A stretch of DNA of 64,000 nucleotides from Candidatus Magnetocorallium paracelense. GTDB lineage: Bacteria; Nitrospirota; Thermodesulfovibrionia; Thermodesulfovibrionales; Magnetobacteriaceae. The notes under the pieces are model-generated. The model did not search any database and had not been told where the DNA came from. It saw only the letters and a program-made list of their open reading frames with translations. Location of the stretch: the NCBI GenBank assembly GCA_029001845.1, contig JAREWP010000020.1, positions 62,001 to 126,000 on the forward strand, read 5' to 3'. Each line of letters begins with the position of its first letter. Positions within the stretch are counted from its first letter, which is position 1. Below, piece after piece: positions 2,571 to 47,234 of this stretch. The position numbers were made by a program, and so were the translations under genes.

Positions 2571-2600
2571 TTGCTGTTCTACAAACCATTCCTGTATAAT
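2571..2600 (+). promoter_or_regulatory. Possible promoter of rpn, leaderless or nearly so
   Basis: A perfect TATAAT at 2595-2600 lies 8 bp before the rpn start codon, with a weak -35 (TTGCTG, 2571-2576) at 18 bp spacing. Transcription would start at about 2606-2608, directly at the ATG at 2609. There is no Shine-Dalgarno before that ATG, which fits leaderless translation. This is inferred from motif spacing only. Confidence 0.4.
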
Positions 2601-2608
2601 GAATTCAA

Positions 2609-3673
2609 ATGAAGAATGCCCCCAACCCTCATGACAGATTTTTCAAGGAGCTGTTAAGCAGGAAGGAGAATGCTTCCGACTTTCTGAAAAACTATTTACC
2701 TGCTAAAGTATCCGCGTTGATAGATCATGAAAGCATAGAGATAGCAAAGGACACTTTTATAGAGGAGGATTTGAAGGAGTACTTTTCAGATATGCTGTAT
2801 AAGGTAAGCCTTAAAGGCAATCCCGGATATGTGTATATACTCTTTGAACATAAAAGCCATATTTATGAGTTAACGGTTTTACAGGTCTTGGGATATATGG
2901 TTGAGATTTGGAAATTGCACATCAAGCAGCAAAAGAGCACCAAGAGATTACCGATCATAATCCCTCTGGTGATTTACCACGGAGAGGAGAAGTGGAAGTC
3001 AGGAGATAGGCTGTCCGGTATATTAGAGGGGCCTGTAACGGAGTTGACAGAGTATATACCTGACTACGGATATTTGTTATATGATCTGAGCGGATATGAG
3101 GATGAAGAGATAAAGGGAAGCATAATGTTGAAAGTATGTCTTTTGATGTTAAAATATATAAAGAGAGAGGATTTGGGAGAGAGATTACGGGATATATTCA
3201 AACTGTTGGCGGAGTTGAGCGATAAGGAAAGGGGGTTGGAATATCTTGAGGTGTTGTTAAGGTATTTAAGCCAGGGAACCGAGAAGGTGGGAGAGGAGGA
3301 AATTAAAAAGGCATTAAAAGAGACTATCGGAGAAGGAGGTGAGAGTCTGATGCCCACATTAGCAGAGAAATGGTATCACGAGGGTGTGGAGAAAGGGATA
3401 GAGCAGGGAATGGAAAAAGGATTGGAAAAAGGATTGGAAAAAGGGATGGAGAAAGGATTGGAAAAAGGAATAGAGAAAGGGATGGAAAAAGGGATGGAAA
3501 AAGGGATGGAAAAAGGATTGGAAAGAGGGATGGAGAAGGGGGTGTTCAAGGCAAAAAGAGAGGATATAATTAAGTTGCACAAAAGAGCGAATATGCAGGC
3601 AGAGAATATAGCGGATGTATTGGAAGTTGAAATCGATCTTGTCAGAAGTATATTGAAAGAAGAAAGCATATGA
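2609..3673 (+). CDS. rpn: Rpn family recombination-promoting nuclease (PD-(D/E)XK, Transposase_31/RpnC-like)
   Basis: This 354-residue protein has the hallmarks of the Rpn/Transposase_31 family: the N-terminal NPHDRFFKELLS motif and a PD-(D/E)XK core with Asp61 and Glu80-His81-Lys82 (ILFEHKS). The following segment TVLQVLGYMVEIW and PLVIYHG is also characteristic. Family members are metal-dependent endonucleases that promote RecA-independent recombination; E. coli members are known as toxic anti-phage proteins held in check by an internally translated C-terminal fragment. From about residue 260 the protein carries 13 tetrapeptide repeats and then a small helical tail. The coding strand is markedly purine-rich with many AGA, ATA and GGA codons, unlike galU or lon, suggesting horizontal origin. 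The stop overlaps the next gene's start (ATGA). Family assignment is strong; the biological role here is inference. Confidence 0.92.
   Translation: MKNAPNPHDRFFKELLSRKENASDFLKNYLPAKVSALIDHESIEIAKDTFIEEDLKEYFSDMLYKVSLKGNPGYVYILFEHKSHIYELTVLQVLGYMVEIWKLHIKQQKSTKRLPIIIPLVIYHGEEKWKSGDRLSGILEGPVTELTEYIPDYGYLLYDLSGYEDEEIKGSIMLKVCLLMLKYIKREDLGERLRDIFKLLAELSDKERGLEYLEVLLRYLSQGTEKVGEEEIKKALKETIGEGGESLMPTLAEKWYHEGVEKGIEQGMEKGLEKGLEKGMEKGLEKGIEKGMEKGMEKGMEKGLERGMEKGVFKAKREDIIKLHKRANMQAENIADVLEVEIDLVRSILKEESI
3333..3352 (+). promoter_or_regulatory. Strong internal ribosome binding site and start codon inside rpn
   Basis: AAGGAGGT at 3333-3340 matches the full anti-Shine-Dalgarno sequence, with 9 nt before an ATG at 3350-3352. 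That ATG is exactly in frame with rpn (codon 248). By contrast the rpn start itself has no Shine-Dalgarno. This arrangement predicts separate and strong translation of the C-terminal portion. Confidence 0.75.
3350..3673 (+). CDS. Predicted intragenic small Rpn protein (RpnS-like antitoxin), nested in frame in rpn
   Basis: Starting from the internal ATG behind AAGGAGGT, the same reading frame gives a 107-residue product (MPTLAEKWYHEG...). It consists of a short helix, 13 EKG-type tetrapeptide repeats and a C-terminal helical tail with the IADVLEVEIDLVRSIL segment. It contains none of the nuclease core. In E. coli, Rpn nucleases are inhibited by small proteins translated from an internal start in the same gene, so by analogy this product would bind and neutralise the full-length nuclease. 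The nested start is seen in the sequence; inhibition is inferred from the family. It shares its stop with rpn and therefore also overlaps the downstream glycosyltransferase start. Confidence 0.65.
   Translation: MPTLAEKWYHEGVEKGIEQGMEKGLEKGLEKGMEKGLEKGIEKGMEKGMEKGMEKGLERGMEKGVFKAKREDIIKLHKRANMQAENIADVLEVEIDLVRSILKEESI
3386..3541 (+). repeat. Tandem 12-bp repeats encoding 13 x (M/L/I/V)-E-K-G
   Basis: Thirteen in-frame 12-bp units related to ATGGAAAAAGGG run without interruption, encoding tetrads of the form hydrophobic-Glu-Lys-Gly, with single variants IEQG and LERG. Several consecutive units are identical at the DNA level, so copy number could change by slippage or unequal recombination in steps that keep the frame. 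The repeats lie inside the C-terminal, presumptive antitoxin, part. Confidence 0.95.
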
Positions 3674-18007: not shown

Positions 18008-18952
18008 TTATTTTGGAACTCCATATACATCGAGCCCATAGCCGTGACCTGCCATCCTTGCCAAGAGACCAAGAAAAATCCTGATTCTTTTAAGGAATTC
18101 TTTTTTACCGCCAAAAACCTCTCCAATCGAAGTGTAATTGATATTCCTGATTTCAATAACTTCGAAACCTGTCATTTCAAAAGCCTGACGAATAGATTTC
18201 GTGGAAAATCCAATCATGTGATAAGGGGAGAAAGTAGGAGAAAGAAAAGGAGTAAAGGGAGATAATCTGAATTTAAAATAGTAATGGCCAACGTGGTTCA
18301 TAAAACAACTCTCATTGGGAACGCCACAGAAAACAACTCCCCGGGGCTTGAGTATCCGTCGTACGGTTTTAAGAAATTTCAATGGTTCCTGTGTGTGCTC
18401 AAGTACTTGGTTGAAATATACAGCGTCAAAGCTTTCCTTCCAGGAGTGCTCAAAATCCTCTAACATGCCTGTAACAACAGGGACTTTGTTTACCTCACGT
18501 GCAAAATGTGCGCTTTCACGATTTACTTCCAGTCCTGTGGCGTCCCATCCGGAACGAATAGACTGTACCAGCAAGTTACCGGGACCGCACCCGATATCCA
18601 GCAGACGCCCCCTATGACCAATGATACTCTCCATACGCTCTAAACGCAAACGGCCCTCGAAGACGTCAATGTCCCTTTCCGAGAGTTGATCAAAGGGGAT
18701 CGATTTTGACAACATTTCAGTATACTCTTCATTGTAAATATCGGAAGAGTCCAAACGACCGGGAAAGGGCATTGGGTTAACATATATCAAAGAACAGGAC
18801 AGGCAGCTGACAATTCTCGCAGGAACGGCGGTAGAGTCGGACCTCGAAAAAAAACCGCCCTCTTTCTCGCCCAGAACCCTGAACTTATCTTGACCGCACA
18901 AAGGGCAGGGTATTATTTTAAATATAAATTTCTTTTCAGAATAAACGTCCAT
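18008..18952 (-). CDS. Class I SAM-dependent methyltransferase with N-terminal zinc ribbon
   Basis: The protein (314 residues from the ATG at 18952) opens with a four-Cys zinc ribbon, CPLC (16/19) and CLSC (50/53), then a Rossmann methyltransferase with the SAM motif LLDIGCGPGN (about 117-126), followed by VYFNQVLEHTQEPLKFLKTVRRILKPRG, the typical acidic/peptide continuation. Proteins with this layout methylate sugars or lipids in surface glycan pathways. A longer reading with a TTG start at 18970 is possible, but the ATG has GGAAGG close before it. It faces the polysaccharide operon starting at 19316, divergently oriented, so a role in the same glycan is plausible. Substrate unknown. Confidence 0.85.
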   Translation of the reverse strand: MDVYSEKKFIFKIIPCPLCGQDKFRVLGEKEGGFFSRSDSTAVPARIVSCLSCSLIYVNPMPFPGRLDSSDIYNEEYTEMLSKSIPFDQLSERDIDVFEGRLRLERMESIIGHRGRLLDIGCGPGNLLVQSIRSGWDATGLEVNRESAHFAREVNKVPVVTGMLEDFEHSWKESFDAVYFNQVLEHTQEPLKFLKTVRRILKPRGVVFCGVPNESCFMNHVGHYYFKFRLSPFTPFLSPTFSPYHMIGFSTKSIRQAFEMTGFEVIEIRNINYTSIGEVFGGKKEFLKRIRIFLGLLARMAGHGYGLDVYGVPK

Positions 18953-18970
18953 GACCTTCCAGGTCACCAA

Positions 18971-19315
18971 AAAGCATGAAAATTATACATGATGAAATAA
19001 TGATTCGTAAGGGCGAACCTGCATGTTCGTCTCGGCCGCGCACCGGTAATCCGGTGCGTTTGTTCGTTCGCCACCGCCGGAGGAGTCACGCAGGTCTGAC
19101 CCTGCATTTTTATGGTTGCCTGTTTTCGGAGAAACAGTTTTGCATATTACCATATTAGTACTCTATCTTGCTACTTTTTCAGTAATCGCAACTGTTTGTT
19201 ATATGAATTGACATCCACGATTTGGTACACTATAGAGTTAATTTGTTTTATTACTTAAGCCCTCTGGTTTTTATACTAAATCATATCTAAATTTTATTTA
19301 TCTGATCAAACGGTA
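18971..19315. other. Divergent intergenic region with GC-rich palindromic island
   Basis: No gene is seen. A GC-rich patch (about 19000-19100) stands out in AT-rich surroundings. It contains the perfect 8-bp stem CGCACCGG / CCGGTGCG (19039-19046 and 19051-19058) and partial copies of the GGGCGAAC ... GTTCG motif often found in dispersed intergenic repeats. A similar GTTCGCCCGCC piece is at 33360. The rest must hold promoters for both flanking genes, but I cannot assign them. Confidence 0.5.
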
Positions 19316-25795: not shown

Positions 25796-25999
25796 TTAGG
25801 GATAAACTCTTACTGCCTGCATCAAAAGTTTATCGGGGATATCTATATCCATCATGTTTGCAGTCTCCCTGTTTATAATAATCTTGAAGCTCTTTGGAGG
25901 AGATGGTGTGACACCGTCTGCCGCACCGCGGGAGATTACTTTTTTCGTAAGACAGGCAATCAATGGGAACAATGGTTTTCCATGGAAACTAAATATCAT
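25796..25999 (-). pseudogene. C-terminal remnant of an ABC_sub_bind-type substrate-binding protein
   Basis: The 67 residues end in FKIIINRETANMMDIDIP followed by DKLLMQA, which matches the C-terminal end of the ABC_sub_bind family (usual form: INLKTAKALGLTIP followed by SLL). Such proteins are normally about 320 residues, or act as sensor domains of hybrid kinases, so only the last fifth remains. It overlaps the 3' end of the response regulator gene by 11 bp in another frame. I read it as a decayed gene, possibly a former kinase sensor of that regulator. Confidence 0.55.
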
Positions 26000-26384
26000 T
26001 TAGTATTCTTTCTCTCTCTAAACACTTAATCATAGAGTGTAAAAGCTCCTTTGTGATAAAAGGTTTAATAATGGTTACGCATACATTCTTATGTCTGTGC
26101 TCCTCATCGTCGTAAGCCGTTGTAACTATTACGGGAGGAATTTTTTTTCTGCTTTCCATAATCTTGTCGATCATCTCAAGACCACTCATCTCAGGCATTT
26201 CAATATCCGTAACAACGATATGGGGATTGATTTTATTATACAGTTCTAAACCTTCCAGGCCGTTTTCAGCTTCATGAACCTCCTTGCACCGCCTGGCCAA
26301 AAATCTGCCGACCTCTTGTTTAACAATCAGGTCGTCCTCAACATACAAAACGACTACTTCATTTAAAAATTTTTCATAATCCAT
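25989..26384 (-). CDS. Single-domain response regulator (CheY-like receiver)
   Basis: The 131-residue protein is a receiver domain only: acidic pair in YVEDD (16-18), phosphoacceptor Asp60 in IVVTDIEMPEMSG, Thr at TTAYDD (about 88-93) and Lys107 in IIKPF. There is no output domain, so it must act by protein contact or belong to a phosphorelay. An AGGAGGTT stands right before the ATG. The expected partner kinase is not adjacent; a degraded sensor-like fragment overlaps its end. Confidence 0.9.
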   Translation of the reverse strand: MDYEKFLNEVVVLYVEDDLIVKQEVGRFLARRCKEVHEAENGLEGLELYNKINPHIVVTDIEMPEMSGLEMIDKIMESRKKIPPVIVTTAYDDEEHRHKNVCVTIIKPFITKELLHSMIKCLERERILNDI

Positions 26385-26786
26385 TAGAACCTCCTAAGAT
26401 ATTTTGTAACCACTTAAGAATTAAGGCTGAAGCAAAAAATTTGATGGCTTGGGTGTGAATGTAACAAACCCTCTGTTTATATTGACATGTCATTCCAATA
26501 AGTTGAAAAAGCACGCCGCATCAATAAGATTATACACTATTTACAAATACTGCATATAGATTTACAGCAATTTAACTTCTTTTAAGATTATAATAATTAC
26601 TATTCAATCATCTTTTTTGTTTTAATATAACTATTCATAACTCATACTACCCCGTTTAAACTGCTTCTTTTTTAATTCAGATTCATCAGGACAGGAGGTG
26701 TATTACTATGACTTAAAGAAAAACAATAATAATGAACTTTAAAGTTACACAGTTATTTATTAATCTTATCGATAAGGAGATATTTT
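26385..26786. other. 402-bp leader/intergenic region before the cytochrome gene
   Basis: The region is AT-rich. It contains a perfect 10-bp palindrome TGACATGTCA at 26483-26492, a possible operator half of a CRP/FNR-like site although it does not match that consensus well, and a two-codon ORF with strong Shine-Dalgarno (separate entry). I see no larger gene. Confidence 0.45.
26693..26716 (+). promoter_or_regulatory. Minimal leader ORF (ATG-ACT-TAA) behind a perfect Shine-Dalgarno
   Basis: AGGAGGT at 26693-26699 stands 8 nt before ATG ACT TAA (26708-26716). The ORF encodes just Met-Thr. It lies 70 bp upstream of the HAO-like cytochrome start, which has its own AAGGAG. A ribosome stalling or recycling at such an ORF could regulate or protect the mRNA. 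Chance occurrence cannot be excluded. Confidence 0.4.
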
Positions 26787-46745: not shown

Positions 46746-46811
46746 AGTGCTGAAGAATTCTTTCCAACACATGCCGGGTATTGGTGCAACAACTGAGAAA
46801 CAAATATTGTT

Positions 46812-47234
46812 ATGGTTATGACAAAATTCACATCAAAGAACAGACCTTTTGTCGGAGTTGCGGTTATCATCAAAAAAAATGAAAAAGTTCTCCTTGGTAA
46901 ACGCAAAAACGCACATGGCGCCGGCACGTGGGCGTTGCCTGGCGGACACCTTGAGTTCAACGAGACTATCGAAAATTGTGCAGAGCGTGAAGTGTACGAA
47001 GAAACAGGGCTTTATATCAAGAATATTCGTTATGGTGCATACACAAATGACATTTTTACCGAGGAGCAAAAGCATTATATAACACTTTTCGTTACAGCAG
47101 AATACAGTCATGGCGATTGCAAAGTAAAAGAACCTCATAAATGTGAACAATGGGAGTGGTTCCCTTGGAATGACCTACCAAAACCGAGATTCCTGCCTTT
47201 GGAAAATCTTTTAAAACAAGGATTTAATATATAG
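46812..47234 (+). CDS. Nudix hydrolase
   Basis: The 140-residue protein has a perfect Nudix box at residues 45-67 (GX5EX7REXXEEXGL, with Glu51, Arg59, Glu60, Glu63 and Glu64). Context such as PFVGVAVIIKKNEKVLLGKR before the box and the ending CEQWEWFPWNDLPKP are like NUDT15/MTH1-type nucleotide pyrophosphatases. It likely hydrolyses a modified or excess nucleoside triphosphate; the exact substrate cannot be told. It stands alone. Start options are M1 or M3. Confidence 0.9.
   Translation: MVMTKFTSKNRPFVGVAVIIKKNEKVLLGKRKNAHGAGTWALPGGHLEFNETIENCAEREVYEETGLYIKNIRYGAYTNDIFTEEQKHYITLFVTAEYSHGDCKVKEPHKCEQWEWFPWNDLPKPRFLPLENLLKQGFNI

Follow-up and report, generated by a model that had tools for sequence, protein, structure and literature searches.

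The window, i.e. the whole analysed stretch of 64,000 nucleotides from Candidatus Magnetocorallium paracelense, carries an rpn gene with the features listed in Table 1. The product of the entire reading frame, the long form RpnL, is matched by the PF04754 profile over residues 6-209 (E=2e-62, 210.8 bits at a cut-off of 21) and by the TIGR01784 model (82.2 bits, cut-off 52.1); the NCBIfam RpnA model was matched as well. In alignment A3, the residues D9, D61, E80 and K82 of the window protein correspond to D11, D63, E82 and Q84 of E. coli RpnA, and the full catalytic set is present. Mutation of these RpnA residues leads to loss of function (PMC5350276). In the structure model of RpnL (pLDDT 86), residues 1-162 resemble the PD-(D/E)XK nucleases EndoMS, SdaI and PaqCI with Z values of about 6, middling values that support the family assignment only. 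A Foldseek search with the RpnL model returned nothing significant, and a PDB sequence search with the window proteins gave only low-complexity matches to repeats or to a designed helical protein. A weak match of the A3 profile to PDB 7TH0 was discarded as circular, because RpnA itself is part of A3.

Table 1. Features of the rpn locus in the window (positions are those of the window)
Feature	Position	Strand	Basis or remark
TATAAT -10 element, candidate promoter of a leaderless mRNA	2595..2600	+	8 nt before the rpn start
rpn gene, long form RpnL, predicted PD-(D/E)XK DNase toxin	2609..3673	+	354 aa; PF04754 match
Catalytic residues D9 (2633), D61 (2789), E80 (2846), K82 (2852)	2633..2854	+	alignment with RpnA
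Internal Shine-Dalgarno (SD) sequence AAGGAGGT	3333..3340	+	strongest of 340 internal ATG contexts
Predicted short form RpnS (putative antitoxin), 107 aa, ATG 3350	3350..3673	+	M248 aligned with RpnA M244
12-nt tandem array, four-residue repeats (M/L/I)EKG, about 12-13 units	3387..3534	+	TRF
C-terminal helix-turn-helix-like tail, common to other nuclease families in the genome	3536..3670	+	tail identity and fold

The neighbours of rpn encode an RND transporter, a glycosyltransferase and a PPDK-like protein, and no defence island is evident among them. The rpn stop codon overlaps the start of the glycosyltransferase gene as ATGA (3670-3673), and the two may be translationally coupled. Elsewhere in the window, PADLOC matches were obtained at 18011-18982 (-), 25992-26393 (-) and 46797-47231 (+), the systems matched being mads_2, SduA (weak) and PDC-S07.

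The predicted internal start at 3350

The internal SD and ATG 3350 are separated by a spacer of 9 nt (3341-3349), and the distance from the main start, (3350-2609)/3 = 247, makes this ATG codon 248, in frame, with the stop codon of the short product at 3671-3673. The sequence-only reading of this DNA had claimed the same arrangement, including a product of 107 aa, and the coordinates were confirmed. Because a single helix of the RpnL model covers residues 247-327, the internal start falls where the repeat helix begins. SD energies were calculated for the duplex with the standard 16S tail, an anti-SD which is assumed because no 16S gene was found in the assembly, and the background rate was taken from the window alone (340 internal ATGs in ORFs of 150 aa or more). 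Within this set ATG 3350 has the lowest energy, -13.0 kcal/mol, the next being -10.8.

A motif of this kind could be a by-product of a Glu/Gly/Lys-rich protein written in purine-rich codons, with no start at 3350. Synonymous codon shuffling within the window gene leaves some room for such an origin: the internal SD obtains p = 0.027, a modest value because the local protein (GEGGE) favours purines anyway, and the shuffled versions already average -11.3 at the internal start. The weight is carried by comparative tests on related sequences rather than by this single-gene p value.

A candidate internal promoter at 3128-3155 (TTGAAA-16-TAAAAT with TG) was rejected, as the number of such hits is in line with shuffles; in the paralogue L057 its -10 hexamer becomes TGAAAT and the match is lost.

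Conservation of the internal start

The shuffle test was extended to PF04754 homologues of many phyla. In each gene, all in-frame ATGs lying between the nuclease domain and the repeats were scored, and the best SD energy among them was compared with the same quantity after the gene's synonymous codons had been shuffled. For the 50 homologues from outside the Bacteroidota, the mean energy at the pre-repeat Met is -9.0 versus -6.7 after shuffling, the latter being what the protein alone predicts (Wilcoxon p 4e-10; the p values of this test are optimistic because the sequences are related), and 41 of them reach -7 or lower. No such shift is seen for control Mets of the nuclease domain (-1.57 versus -1.65 shuffled, p 0.29). 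Among the 11 Bacteroidota homologues the mean is -2.8 versus -3.9 shuffled, and none reaches -7; Bacteroidota make little use of SD sequences. The absence of the motif in this phylum argues against a by-product of protein composition. The single match obtained in viral contigs is distant and without an internal SD.

Synonymous substitution was followed in two further sets of genes. The first consists of nine copies, from the same genome, of a second nuclease type, named DYDSGWKE after its N-terminus. Before the internal ATG of these copies, the codons AAA TAT GAG GAG GAG show a synonymous difference of 0; of 226 nine-codon windows, the one that ends with the ATG ranks third lowest (0.10 versus 0.376 overall). 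The second set is of a third type (KEV) and comprises 20 genes, spread over several genera within the same taxonomic family; their codons -5, -4 and -3 (AAG GAG GTA) have synonymous rates of 0.13, 0.00 and 0.05, with most neighbours at 0.4-0.7; AAGGAGGT, AGGAGGT or a near variant lies 7-8 nt before the ATG in about 20 of 22 KEV genes. The SD is spelled GAA GGA GGT (E-G-G) in the window type, GAG GAG GAG (E-E-E) in DYDSGWKE and AAG GAG GTN (K-E-V) in KEV genes, so that its nucleotides stand in three codon registers across the nuclease families. Between the window gene and L078, a homologue from the same-class genome G209, the SD has moved one codon nearer to the ATG and still reads AAGGAGGT. 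Protein-level constraint alone is insufficient to account for a motif that is kept across three registers and shifted in L078. For the PF04754 copies together with the G209 gene, a sliding-window test of synonymous change was uninformative, since their SDs differ by one codon in distance to the ATG.

The sequence-only reading had suggested that homologues be aligned for an SD/ATG pair that is kept while flanking codons drift, and the shuffle and synonymous tests both returned this pattern. With the SD codons synonymously frozen amid drifting neighbours, and with the same nucleotides encoding E-G-G, E-E-E and K-E-V, an origin of the motif as a mere by-product appears highly improbable. As judged from these comparisons, selection acts on the nucleotides of the internal SD/ATG start in distant bacteria and in several nuclease families.

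Selection on the motif could also reflect slowing of elongating ribosomes without initiation, e.g. to let the nuclease fold before the repeat helix is made, and the location of the SD where the nuclease part meets the long helix would suit such a role. In most homologues, however, the SD is paired with an in-frame ATG at a distance suited to initiation, and E. coli rpn genes do initiate at the homologous place (PMC10327210); slowing alone is an extremely improbable explanation.

The genome (6.0 Mb, 103 contigs) contains about 24 Rpn-type genes. An internal SD with ATG is found in 18 of 18 copies belonging to five nuclease types: PF04754 (4/4), DYDSGWKE (9/9), DUF2887 (2/2), KEV-type remnants (2/2) and a further type at locus L055 (1/1), again in three codon registers. 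None of the six PDDEXK_2 copies of the same genome has an internal SD, and four of these six bear the same tail. Four copies without a nuclease part (L038, L052, L054 and L056) retain the SD, the ATG and the repeats, which is a further point against the by-product explanation.

Several other loci deserve description. Two more PF04754 copies are broken by contig ends inside the gene (L003, L004, L035 and L036, on contigs C46, C82, C38 and C61); these are two 5' halves and two 3' halves that probably belong together, and their pairing is not possible. The PDDEXK_2 gene L037 (C102, near locus position 1600) has no internal SD, and its repeats, (ATGGAGAAGGGA)n, put GGAG 6 nt before the repeat ATGs, which could yield a ladder of short products. 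At L055 (C89:1000-9500), two near-identical PDDEXK_2 rpn genes lie about 5.7 kb apart; between them stands an HDRLFKW-type gene with an internal AAGGAGGT, followed by an ORF resembling a DDE transposase.

The start of the long form

The main ATG at 2609 has an SD energy of +0.4 kcal/mol against the assumed 16S tail, i.e. no SD. TGTATAATGAATTCAA stands directly before the ATG or GTG, identical in all four PF04754 copies of the genome, and L078 (52% identical) has TATATT, likewise 8 nt before its start. A -35-like TTGCTG at 2571-2576 is weak. A -10 box only 8 nt upstream would place the start of transcription at or beside the start codon, and a leaderless RpnL message fits these sequences. The sequence-only reading had described the gene's own ATG as lacking an SD and perhaps leaderless: the missing SD holds, the -10 box kept in five copies adds to it, and the leaderless message is still a prediction from the position of the box.

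The two starts differ in strength beyond the window gene. No strong SD was found at any of the 15 full-length Rpn starts checked in the genome (best -5.8), whereas window-type internal starts reach -13. In 37 of 47 non-Bacteroidota homologues the internal SD exceeds the best SD candidate at the main start in strength, and in 8 the order is reversed; the mean energies of the internal and main-start SDs are -9.1 and -4.3, respectively (p 1e-6).

The short form and the toxin-antitoxin reading

Zhong et al. (2023) demonstrated an internal start in E. coli Rpn genes, from which a short C-terminal protein, RpnS, is translated; in RpnA this start is abolished by K240R+E241D+M244L. They also demonstrated that RpnL, a toxic DNase, is blocked by RpnS: in SOS assays the short forms of RpnA and RpnB act in this way on their long forms, and the RpnA short form prevents the RpnA long form from cleaving DNA (PMC10327210). 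M248 of the window protein and M244 of RpnA occupy one invariant column in alignment A3. The E. coli DNA at the internal start is cacAAGGAGagtttaATG in rpnA and AAAAGGAGaaactgATG in rpnB, both with AAGGAG-6-ATG. RpnA (YhgA; 7TH0) resembles the window protein in its PF04754 nuclease, in the D/D/E-x-K(Q) set and in the start at the homologous codon, and both short forms begin with (M)T(I/L)AE. The fold of RpnS in 7TH0 is a three-helix unit whose first helix is long; for the window one long helix and two short ones are predicted, at residues 247-327, 331-338 and 342-353 of the RpnL model. A separate model of RpnS places its helices at 4-62, 70-79 and 85-106 (pLDDT 67.7) and had no Foldseek match. 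There are also differences. Overall identity between the two Rpn proteins is 27% and the tails differ; in A3, K-12 RpnA has no repeats at the place of the window array, and in contrast to RpnA the window long form has a leaderless-looking start.

The four-residue repeats of RpnS proteins, variable in number, begin 8-20 residues after the RpnS Met (PMC10327210), and the onset in the window, about 12 residues past M248, lies inside this range. The four PF04754 genes of the genome have about 13, 3, 4 and 5 units. The tails behind the repeats are 56-73% identical among four nuclease types, whose N-terminal nuclease parts are barely alignable. L078 combines a PF04754 nuclease with an LKFG-type tail that also occurs on KEV-type Rpn genes in the window's relatives, a combination which suggests that lineages have exchanged tails and nucleases.

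Other systems offer parallels. The RpnS seen from a C. difficile gene, assayed by Zhong et al. in E. coli, provides an internal ribosome-binding site and start from outside E. coli together with four-residue repeats, and is likened here by description; rpn genes occur in 34 bacterial phyla (PMC10327210). The nuclease-less copies L038, L052, L054 and L056 recall E. coli ypaA (rpnES), a separate rpnS gene, and L038, at a distance of 3.7 kb from a full-length relative, does not follow it directly. Synechocystis Cas10d/Cas11d, likened by layout, likewise makes a second protein from an internal in-frame start; its short product assists the long one, unlike the antitoxin RpnS (PMC10327210).

The window rpn is very probably an RpnL/RpnS toxin-antitoxin gene-within-a-gene, with a putative antitoxin made from 3350. 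The whole ORF would give RpnL, a PD-(D/E)XK DNase made sparingly from a weak, probably leaderless start, and the strong internal SD with ATG 3350 would give abundant RpnS, composed of the repeat helix and the helix-turn-helix-like tail. By pairing with the identical tail of RpnL, RpnS would silence the DNase in the way demonstrated for RpnA, up to the moment when a phage, for instance, disturbs the complex. From the sequences and the E. coli precedent we infer translation from 3350, an excess of RpnS over RpnL, binding, neutralisation and phage defence.

Alternatively, the short protein may be made from 3350 and serve as a structural or activating partner of RpnL, or as a DNA-binding regulator. 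Conservation speaks for selection on the start and not for the role of the product, some genes-within-genes encode complex subunits, as with Cas11d inside Cas10d (PMC10327210), and residues 310-354 of the model resemble the DNA-binding helix-turn-helix of DeoR (Z 7.4, likewise a middling value, rmsd 1.8 over 46 residues). In E. coli, the corresponding short forms of both RpnA and RpnB inhibit the long forms (PMC10327210), and a role other than antitoxin is therefore considered unlikely.

The sequence-only reading had proposed that the one-gene toxin-antitoxin layout of E. coli exists here in a distant lineage, and the correspondence of M248 with RpnA M244 and the kept SD/ATG pair support it. 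The layout in distant lineages is already known in kind, from the C. difficile RpnS and the spread of rpn genes, and the window gene is therefore a further member of the RpnL/RpnS system. What appears new from these sequences is the breadth, the asymmetry between a weak toxin start and a strong antitoxin start, and a putatively exchangeable tail common to many nucleases. Literature on DUF2887 (PF11103), covered by a partial search, yielded no test of an internal start.

A wider reading is offered tentatively and is itself rather doubtful as a whole. The antitoxin start would be a DNA-level element under selection of its own, independent of protein sequence, in five or more nuclease types, DUF2887 among them; one exchangeable tail would serve many of the about 24 Rpn-type genes, with the repeat number as the private address of each pair; PDDEXK_2 nucleases would be held by tails made elsewhere; and toxin messages would be leaderless and antitoxin starts SD-driven.

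For the rpn family, the comparative evidence suggests that selection on the nucleotides themselves maintains the antitoxin-inside-toxin layout known from E. coli across phyla and nuclease families, including, as far as the literature search reached, families beyond earlier tests of the layout. The contrast between a weak or leaderless toxin start and a strong SD-driven antitoxin start predicts a bias in the ratio of the two products. With many nucleases bearing closely related tails in one genome, the avoidance of cross-talk between RpnL/RpnS pairs becomes directly testable.
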